Below are positions 4,444 through 20,810 of a DNA stretch of 20,810 nucleotides, piece by piece. Numbering within the stretch: the stretch's first letter is position 1; the number at the start of each line of letters is the position of its first letter. The translations under genes were made by a program, and so were the position numbers. The stretch covers positions 1 to 20,810 of IMG/VR virus record IMGVR_UViG_3300044678_000545. The stretch is one strand, 5' to 3'. This DNA comes from a virus. The notes under the pieces were generated by a model. The model saw nothing but the letters and a program-made list of their open reading frames with translations, ran no database searches and had not been told where the DNA came from.

Positions 4444-4926
4444 ATGGAAAGAGCAATCTTTTTAGTAGACAATTTGACACTTGCACAGGCATGTGTAGCA
4501 TTTGCTGAACAACTTGGTTTAAATGTAGAACCAGAAATCTTATCAAGATTAGAAAATGATCATTATCTAACTACTGGTAGTAAGAATTATGATGTAAACT
4601 TCATTAAGAATGAATCTTATGCTGATAAAAAGGCAGAAGAAGCAGGAATTTTTATTTCTTGCATCAGTGAAGATTACATTGATTTTCTTCAGTCTTGTGT
4701 AGTTGAAGCTGAAAACACAGGAAGTGAAGATGATGAAATTTCATTGGTAGAAGAAGAAAATAGACCAGATAATGCAACTATTAATGCATTGTTTAACAAA
4801 GTAAAAGGTCAGAAGAAATCTCCTGCTAAGTATTACATTGTTGAAAAGAATGGTGCTTGGGTAGCAAGTACAAGTTCAGATGGTTCTTATGGTAATCTTG
4901 CTGAACTTTTTGACTTTGTTTTCTAA
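4444..4926 (+). CDS. Hypothetical acidic protein, 160 aa
   Basis: Acidic protein of unknown function. It has a helical N-terminal ~70 residues, a strongly acidic linker (SEDDEISLVEEENRPD, about residues 98-113) and a small C-terminal domain likely to be beta (AKYYIVEKNGAWVASTSSDGSYG). The ATG lies 12 nt after the helicase stop behind an A-rich leader (attcaattaaa), shared in form with the leader at 7873-7884 and typical of non-Shine-Dalgarno starts. It is the last gene before the terminator at 4945. The acidic linker suggests a protein-binding or DNA-mimic role, but this is speculative. Confidence 0.75.
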   Translation: MERAIFLVDNLTLAQACVAFAEQLGLNVEPEILSRLENDHYLTTGSKNYDVNFIKNESYADKKAEEAGIFISCISEDYIDFLQSCVVEAENTGSEDDEISLVEEENRPDNATINALFNKVKGQKKSPAKYYIVEKNGAWVASTSSDGSYGNLAELFDFVF

Positions 4927-4944
4927 GTTATACTAATAAACAAT

Positions 4945-4977
4945 AGCACCCTATGTTTTATATATAGGGTGCTTTTT
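4945..4977 (+). terminator. Intrinsic terminator
   Basis: Perfect 10-bp stem AGCACCCTAT / ATAGGGTGCT (4945-4954 and 4964-4973), 9-nt AT loop, then TTTTT. It ends the block that finishes with the 4444 gene. The next coding sequence begins 13 nt after the T-run; I found no clear TAnnTTTG promoter in between, so downstream genes may depend on read-through or on an unrecognised phage-type promoter. Confidence 0.88.
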
Positions 4978-4989
4978 AGTTTTAATATT

Positions 4990-6654
4990 ATGGGTAAAAT
5001 AATAATAAATCAAACATCAAGAAGTCAATTTAAACTCAAATTACCTGCAGAATTACAGTATTATATTTATCAAAATAGAAACTCAAGATATGTTTATTTT
5101 AACATAGGAAGTGATATAAATAATGAATTTAATAAAATTATTACAATTAGAAATCATTATTCATATTCTGGACATCATCATAGAGATATAAGACAGATTG
5201 TTCAAGGTTATGTTAGAAGTTCTAGAAGAACACAAATCTTAAATATACCTGTTCATATTATTACAAATACTCATGTAAAATTTTCATCAGTATATACTCA
5301 TAATAATATTAGTAATGTATGTGATACATATTATTTAGATTACAATATTTATGAAGAAGATAATGGTAATTATTGTGTTATAGCTAAGTTTAATGTTCCT
5401 AAATATATTAATATAAATAGTAATTCTACATCAGGATTTAATACAATAAGTTATGATGTTATTGGAAGATCTTTTAATAATTATGATCTTAAGGAAGATG
5501 CTTTAGAAGAATTCTATCATTATGTAAGTTTTGAAAATGATGAACTTACTTACTTTACAAAAGCTAAGTATTCACAAGCTTTGATTAAACTAATTAATCA
5601 AGGATTAGCTAATGATTATGCTATTGGTAATGTTCAAAATCATTGTAATAATTTTACAAGGAAAACATCATTAACTAAATTCTTAATGAAGAGTTTTAAT
5701 GGTGTTGATGAAAAGGTTATTCAAGCTCATTTAGAGTATAATAAGATGTTAAGTACTTATAATCCTGAATTGTTTTCTATTGTAACAGGTAATGATATTG
5801 TCAAATACTATCATGTAGATAATTATTTTAAGAGTAATGGTGACTTAGGTACTTCTTGTATGAGAAATGATTCTAATCAACATCAGATTGAGTTCTATGC
5901 TAAAAATAACAATGTAAGTCTTATTATTATGAGACCTGAAGGTACAGATGGTATTATTGGTAGAGCATTACTATGGACTACTGTTGATGGTATTCGTGTT
6001 ATGGATAGAATTTATACTACTGATAGTAAATTAGTTAGTTTGTTTCATAGATATGCTGCTGAAAATAATTTTCTTAACATCTATGAGTATAGATTACATG
6101 ATAGTGGTAAACCAAATCTTACAGCAATGTCACCTGGTAACTGGACAACTAAGTATATAAGAAATTTTATTGTTGATTTAAATTATCTTACAAAGAAGAT
6201 TCAAAAACTTGATTTAACAGAACAATTTAATTTATCTAAAACTAGACAAACTTCTATTAATAGTGTATATGATATTCCTTATCTAGACAACTTTACTTTA
6301 ATTAATACTATAACTAATCAGATTAGTGTATTACCTATTGAAAATGTATTTATGTGTCCTTTAAGTAATCAACCAATTAATTCTGATAATGTTTTATATA
6401 TTAATGGTGTTATATACAATGGAGATTTTGTTCATTATAGAAACGGTGTTGCAGAACTAATACCAGACATAGTTACTTTAGATGATGATGTAGTTAATTC
6501 TGTAATAAAAACAGAAATGGAAGATTTTATAGAATCTTTATCTGAAGAAGAAACTTGGTATGAAGAATATGCAGAACAAGAAGGACTAATAGAAGAAGAA
6601 GAAATAGCAATTCCTGAAATAACAATGACAAATAATAATAACAATGAAATTTAA
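4990..6654 (+). CDS. Large conserved phage protein with unnamed GTSCMR/GRALLW domain
   Basis: A 554 aa, Asn- and Tyr-rich protein. I chose the ATG at 4990; the in-frame GTG at 4969 lies inside the terminator hairpin. The N-terminal ~280 residues are unrecognised and include a His cluster SGHHHRD (about 60-66). A recognisable core follows: GDLGTSCMRND (284-294), GRALLW (324-329) and VMDRIY (337-342). I recall this GTSCMR/GRALLW combination from uncharacterised proteins of many large phages, but it has no function I can name. The C-terminus is acidic, then Asn-rich (MTNNNNNEI). It overlaps the peptidase gene by 11 nt. Codons appear even more AT-rich than in neighbouring genes. No signal peptide or membrane segment is apparent. 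Function unknown; an enzyme fold around the conserved core is plausible. Confidence 0.8.
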   Translation: MGKIIINQTSRSQFKLKLPAELQYYIYQNRNSRYVYFNIGSDINNEFNKIITIRNHYSYSGHHHRDIRQIVQGYVRSSRRTQILNIPVHIITNTHVKFSSVYTHNNISNVCDTYYLDYNIYEEDNGNYCVIAKFNVPKYININSNSTSGFNTISYDVIGRSFNNYDLKEDALEEFYHYVSFENDELTYFTKAKYSQALIKLINQGLANDYAIGNVQNHCNNFTRKTSLTKFLMKSFNGVDEKVIQAHLEYNKMLSTYNPELFSIVTGNDIVKYYHVDNYFKSNGDLGTSCMRNDSNQHQIEFYAKNNNVSLIIMRPEGTDGIIGRALLWTTVDGIRVMDRIYTTDSKLVSLFHRYAAENNFLNIYEYRLHDSGKPNLTAMSPGNWTTKYIRNFIVDLNYLTKKIQKLDLTEQFNLSKTRQTSINSVYDIPYLDNFTLINTITNQISVLPIENVFMCPLSNQPINSDNVLYINGVIYNGDFVHYRNGVAELIPDIVTLDDDVVNSVIKTEMEDFIESLSEEETWYEEYAEQEGLIEEEEIAIPEITMTNNNNNEI

Positions 6655-7861
6655 TGAAGAATTATTGATTGAGATCTTAGGATGGCAATCAGAATCAAGA
6701 AAAGAAGAAGAACAAATTATTCCACAACTAACAACATATCTTAATGCACTTAATATTGATAATTCTTTGTTAATAGAAAAAGATACACATGGTAATATAT
6801 ATGTTACTAAAGGTAGAACTGATCTCTACCCTTGTGTAGTGTCACACCTAGACCAGGTTCATCGCTATAATGCTAATAAGACTATCATTAGAAATGGTGA
6901 TTATCTATTAGCATTTGATGGTGCTGAACAAATAGGTACTGGTGGTGATGATCTTGTAGGTGTATTTATGTGTCTTAACTTATTAGATGAGTGTGATAAT
7001 ATCAAAGTTGTATTTTTTGTATCAGAAGAAATTGGATGCATAGGTTCTAATGCCTGTGATTTAGATTTCTTTCAAGACTGTAAATTTATTGGTCAAGCTG
7101 ACAGAAAAGGCAATGCTGATTTTATTAATTATTCTAATGGGGTTCAGTTATTTGATGAAGAATTTAGTACCTTTGTAAAACCAATCCTAGAAATTTATAA
7201 GTATAAAGAGTGTACTGGCATAGCAACAGATGCAGGTGCTTTATCTAAAAGAAATGTAGGAATAGCATGTTTTAATATTTCATGTGGTTATCATAACCCT
7301 CATACTTCAAAAGAATATGTATGTGTATCTGAAGTAAAAACCTGTTTTAACATTTTTTGTGAGATAATTTCTAATGCTGATAAACAATTTAAGTATATTA
7401 GAGCTGAGAAACATGTGTCTTATCCAAAGACTTCTAGTAAAACTCATCCTTTGTATACTCAGTTGTATAACAGATTTAAGAAACACCCTAAGTATGTAAA
7501 GTCTCAAAAGCTAACCTATGCATATGGTTTAGCAATTGAGTTCTTTCTAGATCTGATAGATGATTATGATAGAATAGTTGATTCTACTCAACCAGACTAT
7601 CCATATATGTCAGATATGATAGGTGAGTACTTGGATTATTTAGATACAAATGAAGAGTTTCAGAAAGAAGATGTTGTAACTAATACTCCTCTATCTAAAC
7701 AAATTAGTTTGTTTGATGATGATTGTAAACATAGAAATGTAAAGTATGATGGTACAATGACCCAATTCTATTGTATGGATTGCTTTAACTATGTAGATGA
7801 CAAAAGTACTTTCTATGACCAAGAAACTCTTGGTAATTATAGATCAATAGGATACTATTAA
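6644..7861 (+). CDS. M20/M28/M42-type zinc metallopeptidase with C-terminal zinc-knuckle-like tail
   Basis: A 405 aa protein with the ligand pattern of the co-catalytic di-zinc peptidase clan (M20, M28, M42; PepT- or aminopeptidase-like): HLD (68-70), TGGDD (99-103), the Glu pair in SEEIG (127-131), D153 in GQADRKG, and H217/H220 in CGYHNPHTS. The active-site set looks complete, so an active amino- or dipeptidase or amidohydrolase is expected. There is no signal peptide, so it acts in the host cytoplasm. After about residue 340 it departs from the family, and the end carries C361-x-H363 and C377-x2-C380, a possible zinc knuckle. It overlaps the preceding gene by 11 nt. Peptidases of this clan are unusual in a phage replication block. 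Substrate unknown. Confidence 0.82.
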   Translation: MKFNEELLIEILGWQSESRKEEEQIIPQLTTYLNALNIDNSLLIEKDTHGNIYVTKGRTDLYPCVVSHLDQVHRYNANKTIIRNGDYLLAFDGAEQIGTGGDDLVGVFMCLNLLDECDNIKVVFFVSEEIGCIGSNACDLDFFQDCKFIGQADRKGNADFINYSNGVQLFDEEFSTFVKPILEIYKYKECTGIATDAGALSKRNVGIACFNISCGYHNPHTSKEYVCVSEVKTCFNIFCEIISNADKQFKYIRAEKHVSYPKTSSKTHPLYTQLYNRFKKHPKYVKSQKLTYAYGLAIEFFLDLIDDYDRIVDSTQPDYPYMSDMIGEYLDYLDTNEEFQKEDVVTNTPLSKQISLFDDDCKHRNVKYDGTMTQFYCMDCFNYVDDKSTFYDQETLGNYRSIGYY

Positions 7862-7884
7862 CAACAATAAACAATTAAATTAAA

Positions 7885-8229
7885 ATGGAAATTTTGAAAG
7901 ATCAAGAAGCAACACTAGTTGAGAATCAAGATGCATCAAATGTAGATGCAAATGAACAAATGAAAGCAGAGTACATTGCATATGTCAATGAAATCAAAGC
8001 TCAAAGATACCCTTGTGATACAAGAGTAGAAGCTATTGATAGCATTAACACTTTATGTAAGGTGCTTGACTTAACAACTGTTGTTCCTAAGACAGAATTG
8101 CAAAACAGAGAAGGTCAAAGAACTCCAATCATTATTGGTGGTACTCCTATTGACTTAGTTAAGAGTCAGTATCCTGGTTTGTATCCTGTACTTGTGGAAA
8201 GAATCTTAGAATTAGCTGCTAAATTATGA
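7885..8229 (+). CDS. Hypothetical protein, 114 aa
   Basis: Unrecognised protein with an acidic, disordered N-terminal ~25 residues and a helical remainder (YIAYVNEIKAQRYP, AIDSINTLCKVLDL). It then has a short IIIGGTPIDLV segment and a final helix. It starts 23 nt after the peptidase gene behind an A-rich leader (caacaataaacaattaaattaaa). Its stop forms an ATGA junction with the Sak4-like ATPase, so it is probably co-produced with that recombination protein and might be a partner of it; this is inference from position only. Confidence 0.75.
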   Translation: MEILKDQEATLVENQDASNVDANEQMKAEYIAYVNEIKAQRYPCDTRVEAIDSINTLCKVLDLTTVVPKTELQNREGQRTPIIIGGTPIDLVKSQYPGLYPVLVERILELAAKL

Positions 8230-13775: not shown

Positions 13776-15674
13776 ATGGAAATTGGATTAGAAACCTTGT
13801 CACAAATTGTGACCTTTAATAAGTATGCTAAATACTTACCTAGCTTAAGAAGAAGAGAAACTTATAATGAAATTATAATGAGATATCTACAAATGATGGT
13901 AGACAAATACCCTCATTTAGCATTTGATATTATGAAAAACTCTCAGTATATATTTGATAAAAAAGTATTACCTTCTATGAGAGCTTTGCAATTTGCAGGT
14001 CCTGCTATTCAGAAGAATGAAGCTAGGATTTACAATTGCTGTTATTTACCAGTAGATGATTACAGAGCATTTGCTGAGATTATGTTTCTCTTATTAGGAG
14101 GAACAGGAGTTGGTTACTCTGTACAATTTAAACACATTGAGAAACTACCTGAGATTAGAAAGCCTATTAAAGAACAAAAGTTTTTAGTAGGAGATTCTAT
14201 TGAGGGATGGGCTGATGCAGTTAAGCATTTAATTGGAAGTTATTTAGGTTATAGAAACACTAAACCAAGATTTGATTTTAGTGATATTAGAGCTAAAGGA
14301 CAGAGATTAATTACTGCTGGTGGTAAAGCACCTGGTCCTGAACCTCTTAAGACTTGTTTATTTGAACTAGAACAAATATTAGAAAGAAAAGCTAATGGTG
14401 AGAAACTACAAACTATTGAAGTTCATGATATGATTTGTCATATTGCTGATTCAGTACTTGCAGGAGGTATCCGTAGAGCAGCTCTAATTAGTTTGTTTTC
14501 AGCAGATGATGAGCAAATGTTAACTTGTAAGTTTGGAAGTTGGTGGGAAACTAATCCACAAAGAGGTAGAGCAAATAATTCAGCAGTATTAGTAAGACAT
14601 AGAGTAACTAAAGAGTTCTTTTTAGACCTATGGAAGAAAATAGAATTGAGTTATGCTGGTGAACCTGGTATTTACTTTACTAACAATCCAGACTGGGGTA
14701 CTAACCCATGTTGTGAGATTGCTTTAAGACCATACCAGTTCTGTAATCTTTGTGAGGTTAATGTAAGTAATGTTGAATCTCAAGAAGATTTAAACAATAG
14801 AGTAGCTGTTGCTGCATTCTTTGGTACTTTACAAGCAGGATTTACAGACTTTCATTACCTAAGACCTATTTGGAAAAAGACTACTGAAAAGGATGCTCTT
14901 ATTGGTGTAGGTATGACAGGTATTGCTAGTATGGAAGTATTTAAGTATGACCTTACAGAAGCTGCTAGACAAGGTGAGTTAACTAATATTGAAGTTAGTC
15001 AGAGTCTTGGTATTAATAGAGCAGCTAGAATTACTTGTGTTAAACCATCAGGTACTACAAGTTGTGTATTAGGTACTGCATCAGGTATTCATGCTTGGCA
15101 TAATGACTTCTATATTAGAAGAATGCAAATGTCTAAATCAGAAGACCTTTATAAGTATTTAACTACTAACCATCCTAGCTTAGTTAAAGACCATTTATTA
15201 ATTCCTAATTCTGCAGTAGTAGAAATTCCTATTAAAGCACCTGCTGGTTCTGTATTAAGAACTGAATCTGCTTTAGATACATTAGAAAGAGTTAAGAACG
15301 TGTCCATGAAATGGATAAAACCTGGACATATTCATGGTGATAATACACATAATGTCAGTGCTACTATATCTATTGATAAAAATAGAGTTTATGGTAATTT
15401 AGGAGAAAAGAACTCTTTAAAAGATGAGTGGGAAGTAGTTGGAGAATGGATGTGGGAAAACAAAGAACATTATAATGGTTTATCTGTACTTCCTTTTGAT
15501 GGGGGCTCTTACAGCCAAGCTCCTTTTCAAGATATTACAGAGGAAGAGTATAACAATCTTGTAGGTCACTTAACTTCTATTGATTTAACTAAAGTAATTG
15601 AAGAAGATGATCTTACTAGCTTAATGGATCAAGCAGCCTGCCAAGGCGGAGCTTGTGAAATAACAACTTTATAA
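13776..15674 (+). CDS. nrdJ: Class II (adenosylcobalamin-dependent) ribonucleoside-triphosphate reductase
   Basis: A 632 aa ribonucleotide reductase that makes dNTPs from NTPs. Seen: YNCCYLPVDD (86-95) with the first active-site Cys, LLGGTGVGYSV (106-116), SVLAGGIRRAALIS (226-239), NPCCEI (310-315) with thiyl-radical Cys C312 and E314, C323 in FCNLCEV, PSGTTS (424-429) and a C-terminal redox pair CQGGAC (C622/C627). The 11-residue spacing C312-C323 equals C408-C419 of the Lactobacillus RTPR enzyme, as I recall its numbering. It is shorter than that protein (about 740 aa) and has no N-terminal ATP cone. No NrdB subunit gene or NrdD-type glycyl motif is seen, which supports class II and cobalamin use. 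It has its own promoter and leads the nucleotide cassette. Confidence 0.9.
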   Translation: MEIGLETLSQIVTFNKYAKYLPSLRRRETYNEIIMRYLQMMVDKYPHLAFDIMKNSQYIFDKKVLPSMRALQFAGPAIQKNEARIYNCCYLPVDDYRAFAEIMFLLLGGTGVGYSVQFKHIEKLPEIRKPIKEQKFLVGDSIEGWADAVKHLIGSYLGYRNTKPRFDFSDIRAKGQRLITAGGKAPGPEPLKTCLFELEQILERKANGEKLQTIEVHDMICHIADSVLAGGIRRAALISLFSADDEQMLTCKFGSWWETNPQRGRANNSAVLVRHRVTKEFFLDLWKKIELSYAGEPGIYFTNNPDWGTNPCCEIALRPYQFCNLCEVNVSNVESQEDLNNRVAVAAFFGTLQAGFTDFHYLRPIWKKTTEKDALIGVGMTGIASMEVFKYDLTEAARQGELTNIEVSQSLGINRAARITCVKPSGTTSCVLGTASGIHAWHNDFYIRRMQMSKSEDLYKYLTTNHPSLVKDHLLIPNSAVVEIPIKAPAGSVLRTESALDTLERVKNVSMKWIKPGHIHGDNTHNVSATISIDKNRVYGNLGEKNSLKDEWEVVGEWMWENKEHYNGLSVLPFDGGSYSQAPFQDITEEEYNNLVGHLTSIDLTKVIEEDDLTSLMDQAACQGGACEITTL

Positions 15675-15675
15675 T

Positions 15676-16389
15676 ATGAATAATACTGTAGAATTGTTAG
15701 GTTGGTATGGCTCTGATGAGGTAATAGCTTGTTCTGCGTGGACAAGTACCTCAAGAGAGTTAACTGATGATAAGAAAAGTAGGATACCTTCTTTAATAGA
15801 TATGTTATGGAGTAATGGTCATGAAACACCATTTGAGAAAGCTACAGTTCACTTTTTAGTTAACTGTGATATAGCTTCACATATACATCTATTAAAGCAT
15901 AGGATGGCTTCTATTAATGCAGAATCAGCTAGGTATAAAGAGTTAAAGGAAGATAAATTTTATTTACCTAAAGACTGGAATGGTATATTATGTACTGAAA
16001 ATATAAATCCTGAAATATTACCACCAGATAAAGATGAAGTTCCTTTTGCTGAAAGAGGAGAATCAGAATGGTTAGCTGTTTTAAGAAATTATACACTTTT
16101 AGGTAGTAGGTTGTATCATCAATGTCTAGAAGATTTAACTCCTATACTTGGTAGAAAGAGAGCTAAAGAATCTGCTAGGTTCTTTAAGACTTACAATTCT
16201 CAAATACAAGCTGATGTAATGTTTAACATGAGAAGCTTTGCTAACTTTCTAAAGCTTAGAAATAGTGAACATGCTCAGGTTGAAATTAGAGAAATAGCAC
16301 AAGAAATGTTATCTTTGGTACAAAATATAGAAGGTAACCCTTTTGAACAAACAATAAAATCAATAACTAAAAATGGAAAATCAAGTTAA
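15676..16389 (+). CDS. thyX: Flavin-dependent thymidylate synthase ThyX
   Basis: A 237 aa ThyX, converting dUMP to dTMP using methylene-tetrahydrofolate and reduced FAD. Seen: GHETPFE (48-54, the family's H.(S/T)PFE segment), the signature KHRMASINAESARY (74-87) matching RHRxxSxNxxSxRY with Lys in place of the first Arg, and the C-terminal RSFANFLKLRNSEHAQVEIR matching 'R..L..FL.LR....AQ.EIR'. Active-site residues are otherwise complete. It starts 1 nt after the RNR stop and overlaps the next gene by 17 nt, so it is in one operon with RNR and dUTPase, which supply its substrate. Confidence 0.95.
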   Translation: MNNTVELLGWYGSDEVIACSAWTSTSRELTDDKKSRIPSLIDMLWSNGHETPFEKATVHFLVNCDIASHIHLLKHRMASINAESARYKELKEDKFYLPKDWNGILCTENINPEILPPDKDEVPFAERGESEWLAVLRNYTLLGSRLYHQCLEDLTPILGRKRAKESARFFKTYNSQIQADVMFNMRSFANFLKLRNSEHAQVEIREIAQEMLSLVQNIEGNPFEQTIKSITKNGKSS

Positions 16390-17401: not shown

Positions 17402-20400
17402 CTATTGTTTCATCTTCATGTACTTAATAGATTCTTCTGGATCAAAGTTTACACCTGTTATACCCCAGAATTTCATAAATGCTGCAAGTAGTTTACTATC
17501 ACCTTTATTAAATATACCAGTATCTTTTTTATATACTTCTGTTGGATCAGATAATTGTTTTACTAATTTTACAAATCTGTCAGTAGTACCTGTAATTGCA
17601 GATACACCTTTTAAGTTATTATAAAATTCTCTAATATTGGGTGTTAATAATGCATTTTGAGGATCTCCAAAAGTTAAGTATATACCAAGTTCTTGATTTA
17701 ATTTCATAGCTGTAAAAAGAAATCTACTTAAAAATCTTTTTTCATCATCATCATCTGCATCTTCCATTAAAGAAGCTATTACAATTACTGCTAAACCAGT
17801 AGCAAATACAATCATCATTTCTCTAGCAGCCCTTCTTAAATTTTGTTTTTCATGAGGTGAGAAACCATTTTTCTCTAATCCCATATAAAAACGTACTAAT
17901 TTTTTAGTATCTGTTATTAGTTTATCAAAAAATGTATTATAATATCCTTCAGTAAAAGTACCTAATTCTTGGTCTAACCCTAGTCTTTTATACCTTCTCT
18001 TTAAACCTGGTGCTAAAAACTTTCTATACATTATAAGAAGTCTTCCTACTGCATGTCTTTCTAAAGCAGGTTTATCAAAACTATTATATATACCATGCAT
18101 TCTTTTGTTAAGAGCATGTAATCTATCTTGAACATCTCTTGATATTTTACCATTTTCAGAAAGTTTATCATCAGTAAAATATCCATTTAAAGTAATTTGA
18201 CCTGTCTTTTTAAAGTTTTCTTGATATGCTTTAAACATAGAAATTTCTTTTCCTGATGCATCTTTAACTTTAGTTGATAAAAGAATAGCAATCATAGTTC
18301 TTATTTGAATAGAATGTTCTCCTTGATGCTGTAAAAAGAACCAAGTATCTGAAGACCACATTTTCTTAAATGCAGACTGTGATACTTTTCTACCAGCTGC
18401 ATCTTTGTATTCTCCTTGCATAGGATCAATAGTATCTGTTAGTTGACCTATAAAAGATTTATTAACTGGATTTGCAAAATCTTTTAAGTAATCTATAATA
18501 CTTGCATCATACTCAACTCTTGATTGTAACCATTCTTTATCTGAAAAGAATTGTCCACCAAATGCTTCTATACTAGCTTGAACATTACCTTGCATATAGT
18601 TAACTAAAGCAGGTAATGGATTAATACCACCTAATTGTGTAACAGCTGCAAATGACATTACTGAATCCACTAATTTATTCATATCTACTGATTTTCCAAA
18701 TATATTGTACACTGCTTCAACATTGTGTTTACCAAATATTTGAGTATCAATAAATATAGCAAGTAACTTAGCTATATTATTATCACCAAGTTTATTTTTA
18801 TAATATTTAAGAGCTTCATCTTTTATACCTAATTTTGAAGCTACACTATCAAAGTATCTATTACCTAAACTATCAGTTTTAGTTGGAGGATTTAATCTAA
18901 CTATATCTAATAAAGCTTCACCTGCTGATAGATTTTCTTGTTTAGCATTATAGTCTAATGAAAATCCTCTATAAGCTATTATAGATGATACTAAATCTAA
19001 ATTAACTAACTCAGGATCTATCTCAATATTATATATCATTGGTATTTCTTTTATATCACTTCCATACCTTTGAATTTCTTCCTTCTGTCTTTTCTTAAAG
19101 TATTCCCATTTATACATGAAATAATCTTTAATACCATTTTCTTTTAGTTGATCTAGTCCAGTTTTTACTATTGCTGGTAATCTATATCCTAATTTTTTAG
19201 GTAAGTCTTCTTGTGATTCAAAGTGAGATGATACCAAGAAATCATAATACTTTTTAGTAGCACCAGACAGTGCTTCATATTTTTGATTTCTAAATTTTTC
19301 AGGATTTATCATTAAGAATTCATCATCAAAAACAAGTTCATTGTTTTCAAGTCTACCTTCAGTTCTAGCAATATAGTTATTTAATTGATTTTCACTTATA
19401 AGACCTTTTTCAAAAAGTCTTCTTTGATCTTCAATTAAACTATTTAAACCTTTAACAAGAATTGCTTCTTTTTTAGTATAAGGGTTTTTTATAACTATAT
19501 CCTCTTTAGGTCTAATCTTTTTATAACTTTTAATAAATGCTTTTCTTAATGCACTTCTGTCAGCAGGTGTTTTAGCTTCACCCAAGAGTTTTATATAATT
19601 AGCATATACTTTGTTATATGCATTATAATCAATGTTACTTACAAATCTAGTTTGTTTTTTAAACATTGGTTCACCTTCAGGTGACATCTTATCAAAAACA
19701 TTTACTTCTTCAAAGAAAGGTTTATTGAATTCAGCAACATCGTTTCTACTAACAGATGTAGATTTTGCATAATCTTCAAATGCTGTTGCTGCAGATCTTT
19801 CAAATGAAAGAAGTTCTTGTCTTGCATTCTCCAAATCATTCTTTAGAGTTTTTGCAAAAGATGCTAACAATTCATTACTTGAACTTATTGCAGATGTAAG
19901 ATATAAATCCATTGTACTTATATCTTCAGATGAACCTTCTTTTAAAGATTTAATAAGAACATTTTTAGTTACACCTTCTTCACTTCTTAAGAACATTATT
20001 CTTTTATCAAGAACTTGTTGTTGTTTTTCAGCTTTCTTAGGATCTACTTTTTTTAATTGTTCTATTTGTTTCTTTTGAAATTCAATTTCACGTTTAACAT
20101 CTTCATTAGCTTTTTTAGATATACCATTTTCATATAATATATCTGCTAAATAATAAACAACCTCATCTTCATAAGTCTTATTAATATCTGACAATGCACT
20201 TATACAGTGATTAATTTTATTAAATACTGGATTGTCTACAGTATCCATATAAGATATGTTAGATCTTTTAAATGCATTTAAAGATTCAATTAATGGTCCA
20301 AATATTTCAACAGTTTGTTTAATAACCATGAACCTGTTTATTGCTTCTTTAACATCAATTTTATTATTAGTTAAATCCCTACTTATATTTTTTATTTCAC

Positions 20401-20810
20401 TAGACAACCCTGGTTTTAATTTACCATTAGGTAGTTCTTTAGAAACTAACATATTATATACTTGATCTATAAATAAATTTAAAACTTTAGTCTTTTCAGT
20501 AGTATCAAGTAGTTCAATTAACTGTTGAATTTCTTTTGCTTCAAAAAACTTTCTTTTTATATTTTTTATTTGATCATATCTTTTGGTGAGTACCATTTTA
20601 ATTTCTTCAATTAATCTACCCTCCTTAGATTTTAAATTTAAATCTTCAACAACTAATGAATCTTTAGGTACAAACTTATTAATGATATATTCATAAGCTG
20701 CTAAGTTTAATACTGGTTCAACGTCAAGTTTTTCAGGAGAACCTGTATCATTTATTTCTGTAAAATGTACAGGAACAATACCTAAGTCATAAGTTGTATC
20801 AGTAAACTTA
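17402..20810 (-). CDS. Giant phage protein, C-terminal part (5' partial), probable virion/ejected protein
   Basis: The frame is open from its TAG at 17402-17404 to the right edge; the Met at 20596 is internal, since about 71 further codons precede it in frame (...VVEDLNLKSKEGRLIEEIK before that Met). At least 1135 residues are visible and the start lies outside. Seen: Lys/Glu-rich helical and coiled-coil stretches in the first half (e.g. FQKKQIEQLKKVDPKKAEKQ), an Ala/Gly-rich helical centre, and one clear hydrophobic segment (MMIVFATGLAVIVIASLM, about 120 residues before the C-terminus) followed by DADDDDEKR. No enzyme motif is recognised; no RNA polymerase DxDGD was found. In crAss-like phages, giant ORFs of this kind encode virion proteins, including the packaged RNA polymerase; this role is inferred from size and layout. 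Convergent with the replication block. Confidence 0.75.
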   Translation of the reverse strand, partial: KFTDTTYDLGIVPVHFTEINDTGSPEKLDVEPVLNLAAYEYIINKFVPKDSLVVEDLNLKSKEGRLIEEIKMVLTKRYDQIKNIKRKFFEAKEIQQLIELLDTTEKTKVLNLFIDQVYNMLVSKELPNGKLKPGLSSEIKNISRDLTNNKIDVKEAINRFMVIKQTVEIFGPLIESLNAFKRSNISYMDTVDNPVFNKINHCISALSDINKTYEDEVVYYLADILYENGISKKANEDVKREIEFQKKQIEQLKKVDPKKAEKQQQVLDKRIMFLRSEEGVTKNVLIKSLKEGSSEDISTMDLYLTSAISSSNELLASFAKTLKNDLENARQELLSFERSAATAFEDYAKSTSVSRNDVAEFNKPFFEEVNVFDKMSPEGEPMFKKQTRFVSNIDYNAYNKVYANYIKLLGEAKTPADRSALRKAFIKSYKKIRPKEDIVIKNPYTKKEAILVKGLNSLIEDQRRLFEKGLISENQLNNYIARTEGRLENNELVFDDEFLMINPEKFRNQKYEALSGATKKYYDFLVSSHFESQEDLPKKLGYRLPAIVKTGLDQLKENGIKDYFMYKWEYFKKRQKEEIQRYGSDIKEIPMIYNIEIDPELVNLDLVSSIIAYRGFSLDYNAKQENLSAGEALLDIVRLNPPTKTDSLGNRYFDSVASKLGIKDEALKYYKNKLGDNNIAKLLAIFIDTQIFGKHNVEAVYNIFGKSVDMNKLVDSVMSFAAVTQLGGINPLPALVNYMQGNVQASIEAFGGQFFSDKEWLQSRVEYDASIIDYLKDFANPVNKSFIGQLTDTIDPMQGEYKDAAGRKVSQSAFKKMWSSDTWFFLQHQGEHSIQIRTMIAILLSTKVKDASGKEISMFKAYQENFKKTGQITLNGYFTDDKLSENGKISRDVQDRLHALNKRMHGIYNSFDKPALERHAVGRLLIMYRKFLAPGLKRRYKRLGLDQELGTFTEGYYNTFFDKLITDTKKLVRFYMGLEKNGFSPHEKQNLRRAAREMMIVFATGLAVIVIASLMEDADDDDEKRFLSRFLFTAMKLNQELGIYLTFGDPQNALLTPNIREFYNNLKGVSAITGTTDRFVKLVKQLSDPTEVYKKDTGIFNKGDSKLLAAFMKFWGITGVNFDPEESIKYMKMKQ

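Follow-up and report, generated by a model that had tools for sequence, protein, structure and literature searches.

The gene at positions 6644–7861 of the viral DNA analyzed here (IMG/VR record IMGVR_UViG_3300044678_000545, 20,810 nt, hereafter the window) encodes a PepT/M42-like peptidase whose predicted structure lacks the lid domain, and its most constant neighbor in phages and other mobile elements encodes a protein of a family defined in this analysis and termed SCM. With a probability of about 0.5, a joint figure for the whole two-component explanation, the two proteins form an early host-takeover module of mobile elements, in which the peptidase would be a PepT/M42-type di-zinc enzyme of the cytoplasm, acting as an exopeptidase or deacylase, would physically interact with the SCM protein and would be directed early against the host. 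The peptidase has already been annotated, as an orphan, in hundreds of phages, including KP34, P23-45 and phi38:1; a constant partner turns two "hypothetical" genes into one system that can be tested in culturable phages. Unrelated phages share the pair with a conjugative transposon, and the largest known phages carry it in many copies; both facts point to a host process common to these elements. No description of the peptidase-SCM pair was found in the open-access literature, and the link is not recorded in the phage annotations of the PHROG 4191 type that were examined.

Table 1. Features of the peptidase gene and its upstream partner in the window. Ligand counts refer to 60 aligned relatives of the peptidase, H68 and D70 being scored on the rows that cover them.
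Feature	Position	Strand	Basis
SCM-family partner protein, 554 aa	4990..6654	+	profile and motif comparisons
Predicted GNAT-like core of the partner, residues 250-455	5737..6354	+	structure model comparison
S289-C290-M291	5854..5862	+	invariant in 48/48 relatives
R325-A-L-L-W329 ... D339-R-I-Y342	5962..6015	+	R325, D339 and Y342 invariant
11-nt overlap, partner stop/peptidase start	6644..6654	+	same overlap in Pectobacterium phage PhiM1
Lidless PepT/M42-like di-zinc peptidase (predicted), 405 aa, PHROG 4191	6644..7861	+	ORF list, profile matches, AlphaFold2 model
H68-x-D70, zinc ligand and catalytic Asp	6845..6853	+	58/58 covered rows
D102-D103 (GGDD), D102 the bridging ligand	6947..6952	+	relatives alignment
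E128-E129, catalytic Glu and zinc ligand	7025..7030	+	60/60
D153, zinc ligand	7100..7102	+	60/60
H220, zinc ligand	7301..7303	+	60/60; neighboring H217 not conserved
Tail C361-x-H363...C377-x2-C380	7724..7783	+	conserved in relatives; phrog_5600 at 358-393, E 0.004

The Peptidase

The open reading frame and the residue numbering of the first-pass annotation, which had described a phage metallopeptidase with a complete di-zinc site, are correct. The product matches the PHROG 4191 "peptidase" profile (E 6e-49) and thus belongs to the same family as KP34 gp11, phi38:1 gp038 and others. Its match to Pfam M42 (PF05343) reaches 25.2 bits against a cut-off of 23.2 (E 1e-5), and the NCBIfam PepT model (TIGR01883) gives 36 bits, below its cut-off of 274. 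The AlphaFold2 model (pLDDT 86.6) matches PepT 3gb0 from Bacillus cereus with a Z of 27.5 and 2.2 Å over 235 residues of the alpha/beta catalytic domain. In this alignment residues 1-247 of the model pair with residues 1-372 of the 373-residue PepT chain, which indicates that the lid/dimerization domain, located in PepT between the equivalents of D153 and H220, has been lost. With the PepT/M20B tripeptidases (3gb0, 3rza) the phage enzyme shares the catalytic fold, all ligands and a GYxxxHTxxE segment; unlike them it has an extra helical region, a C-terminal zinc ribbon and an obligatory neighbor. The same core is matched by the M42 tetrahedral aminopeptidases (Z about 24), and here, too, an inserted domain is absent from the phage protein: the alignment with the M42 enzyme 9qr6, which is 350 residues long, covers 230 residues of the model. 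The missing PDZ-like domain is the one that M42 enzymes use for shell assembly. LysK, ArgE and DapE were also found among the structural matches.

The ligand set of clan MH (HxD, D, EE, D/E, H) is present in order, and Jenst, FADO, Calle_1, KpV475 and one megaphage likewise keep every catalytic and metal ligand. The di-zinc site proposed in the first-pass annotation is intact, being kept in all relatives that cover it, with the exception of H217, which had been listed together with H220 and is replaced by Y in 50 of the 60 relatives; by analogy with PepT, the zinc ligand is H220, not H217. D102 is found in 58 of 58 rows, while two further rows, with M at this position, are cut by an inserted element. 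An insert of about 0.96 kb is situated exactly between the codons of D102 and D103 in three loci (L006:1230-2232, L007:1365-2367 and L027:5172-6174) and encodes a 249-aa LAGLIDADG-like endonuclease ORF. Its borders, T at the exon end and G at the insert end, are as in group I introns, and an Rfam search of the insert gave no RNA family match. Two other arrangements of the peptidase gene are also worth mentioning. In Enterococcus phage VRE9_2 (L160) the gene, at 5851-6924, is flanked by copies of phrog_18912 at 4630-5829 and 6949-7956, and in Pseudomonas phage C171 (L153, 7240-8255) the peptidase extends over two overlapping ORFs beside the SCM gene, perhaps owing to a frameshift or a sequencing error.

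The C-terminal tail lies outside the peptidase fold, as had been proposed, and the survey of homologs showed it to be well kept: C361 is found in all 60 relatives, whereas C377 and C380 are each found in 59. The position of the fourth ligand is occupied by H363 in the closest relatives; elsewhere a Cys shortly after C361 usually takes its place. Since the homologs of Drulisvirus, Thermus and Jenst phages are devoid of the tail, the zinc ribbon is typical of one large subclade and not universal.

The SCM-Family Partner

The upstream ORF, which is also listed from a GTG at 4969 (561 aa), carries the full signature by which the SCM family was defined: S-C-M, R-A-L-x-W, D-R-x-Y (D-x-x-Y) and P-x-x-D. 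No convincing match to the partner was found in Pfam, in NCBIfam or among PDB sequences, and comparison of SCM sequences with solved structures gave no match. The core of the protein was modeled at a pLDDT above 90, and its matches in the PDB are almost all GNATs, albeit weak ones (Foldseek E 0.004, prob 0.99, Z at most 6.1). In the model C290 is placed between helices 1 and 2 and D339 on the fourth strand, and S289-C290-M291, R325, D339 and Y342 would cluster where a GNAT-like active site is expected. The CoA motif of GNATs, Q/R-x-x-G-x-G/A, was found in none of the 48 SCM proteins, and the protein is accordingly termed GNAT-like here, rather than a GNAT. PcfJ was also considered as a possible relative, as its Cys, helix and three strands follow one another as in SCM, yet it was rejected for want of profile support: PF14284 (PcfJ) gave an hhalign Prob of 0.8 against SCM and no match at any SCM gene.

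Linkage and Distribution of the Pair

Eighty viral contigs were collected with the peptidase alignment and then scanned with the SCM profile, which in most of them picked the gene directly upstream of the peptidase. Among 49 dereplicated loci the SCM gene is near the peptidase gene in 40, directly adjacent in 35, and the next most frequent neighbor family reaches 16; in 74 loci with usable flanks it is directly upstream in 52, downstream in two, elsewhere in the locus in six and not present in 14. On viral contigs at least 30 kb long, both families are present in 35 of 36 cases, L039 being the exception. The SCM family is thus the most constant neighbor of the peptidase, and the genetic association of the two is very strong; no other evidence presented here argues as strongly for a shared function. 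The overlapping upstream protein, suggested earlier as a docking partner, does in this respect stand in a special relation to the peptidase. These co-occurrence counts are drawn from related genomes and do not represent independent events, the independent evidence being the number of lineages: Pervagoviridae (the lineage of the window and the Cellulophaga phages), four groups of Autographiviridae, Thermus siphophages, megaphages and Bacteroidota elements. The Enterococcus and Bacillus phages are probably further lineages holding the pair.

Numbers of records for the two families are 231 and 230 for Klebsiella and 42 and 42 for Vibrio phages, and are likewise equal for Escherichia (10), Shigella (4), Cellulophaga (7) and megaphages (5 each). 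In the Autographiviridae KpV475 gp10, PhiM1 gp9, a protein of C171 and Vibrio MGD1 gp6 belong to a family related to the partner, each encoded directly upstream of the peptidase, and the comparison of the Autographiviridae partner with that of the window by hhalign gave a Prob of 94.7 (E 6e-8, 256 columns). In Thermus phage P23-45 the SCM protein is gp1 (E 2.4e-11) and the peptidase gp56, 30 kb apart, and the same ten Thermus phage records carry both; adjacency of the pair has been lost in these phages and in one marine clade. Enterococcus phages contribute seven peptidase and seven partner records, the partner being a probable SCM member by a match of E 2e-8 located mainly in its Cys-rich C-terminal part, and the "SCQ" proteins of the Bacillus/Jenst phages are probable members with the motif in register (Prob 14.7). 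Two phages depart from the pattern: in Bacillus phage EZ-2018a an SC[L] protein is present and the peptidase was not detected, and in Lactococcus phiQ1 the peptidase is present and the SCM protein was not detected. The joint occurrence extends to joint absence in phiKMV, a podophage that shares its family with KP34 and lacks both genes.

Four distinct megaphage genomes, ranging in size from 635 to 735 kb, each have 9-19 matches to the SCM family and 4-8 to the peptidase, several of which lie in clusters. N-termini such as MISYNNFINEA, which we take to resemble the capsid-targeting signal of T4, are present in 18 of 32 sampled megaphage SCM proteins, in none of seven peptidases, and, as the same short motif, in 7 of 48 other SCM proteins. 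In the 735-kb phage LR756501 (L017, L177-L182) many neighbors besides the SCM genes also start with T4-like capsid-targeting motifs, suggesting that this phage may package a large set of proteins in its head. Outside phages, in Phocaeicola vulgatus ATCC 8482 of the Bacteroidota, the pair lies in a conjugative transposon, next to an N6-methylase gene and no more than about 5 kb from TraM. In several phages the pair is found among early or replication genes and not among structural ones. The peptidase gene is located elsewhere than in the replication block in Cellulophaga, Thermus and megaphage genomes, and its placement there in the window, which the first-pass annotation had remarked on as odd for such an enzyme, is incidental.

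Possible Functions of the Pair

In the two-component module proposed here, the lidless peptidase would work with the upstream SCM protein during takeover of the cell and would act on a specific cellular target rather than on bulk peptides. With the lid missing, another component would be expected to complete the substrate site, the partner being the obvious choice. The SCM protein would most likely either supply what the lidless enzyme misses, namely recognition of the target together with a portion of the substrate pocket, or else present or modify the substrate. Action on the host during entry is inferred from the placement of the pair with early or replication genes, the apparent capsid targeting in megaphages and its carriage by a conjugative element.

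Among the other readings, it is rather unlikely that the pair writes and erases a tag on a protein or metabolite, with the SCM protein as a transferase that would attach the tag, acyl or aminoacyl, and the peptidase as the enzyme that would take it off in the manner of ArgE/LysK-type deacylases. This would agree with the PDB comparison of the SCM core, whose best matches are nearly all GNATs, and with LysK, ArgE and DapE among the matches of the peptidase, and NCBIfam weakly ties a Bacteroidota homolog to the NAGGN-osmoprotectant M42 peptidase and the [LysW]-lysine hydrolase. The NAGGN cassette includes a GNAT, which was also counted in favor of such a tag; the lack of the CoA pyrophosphate motif in all 48 SCM proteins and the Z of only about 6 speak against it. 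A more specific and somewhat more doubtful version would have a GNAT-fold transferase without the CoA motif modify a cellular protein with an aminoacyl or peptide group, which the peptidase would trim or remove, the two forming an undescribed two-component enzyme system of phages, megaphages and conjugative elements. A known phage transferase tied to proteolysis is Rac of phiKMV, similar to the SCM core in predicted fold and thought to act via host proteases (PMC7552054). A Rac-type, acetylation-triggered cleavage of RNAP was rejected, as Rac is a canonical GNAT that sits elsewhere, and its phage is devoid of both genes of the pair.

Inactivation of a host immune signal or defense protein by the pair would fit the finding of the pair in phages that infect many different hosts and, next to an orphan N6-methylase, in a conjugative transposon, the multiplied copies in megaphages and the capsid-targeting-like N-termini of many SCM proteins. 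A PADLOC search of known defense and anti-defense families gave no match, and anti-defense genes are usually kept less steadily than this pair, which belongs to the core of entire phage genera; this reading is fairly unlikely as well. The recycling of amino acids from degraded host peptides, the option listed first in the first-pass annotation, fits poorly with the present data and is considered quite improbable: the PepT relatives are indeed tripeptidases, but an enzyme serving nutrition should have no need of the same partner in conjugative elements and in phages that are not related to one another, and the loss of the lid and the ribbon tail would be left unexplained too. Finally, there is very little chance that the peptidase serves to mature a protein of the phage, a role in which the SCM protein would be its substrate or a scaffold; the gene overlap suggests coupled synthesis, but enzymes of the PepT fold are exopeptidases, and the position of the pair away from structural genes does not favor such a role.

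Other Genes of the Window

Two further regions of the window deserve mention. On the minus strand, positions 17402-20809 are taken up by an ORF that is not closed at the end of the window and encodes at least 1135 aa; it has no Pfam or PHROG match above chance. At positions 13776-16389 a B12-dependent ribonucleotide reductase gene is followed directly by a gene for the thymidylate synthase ThyX.
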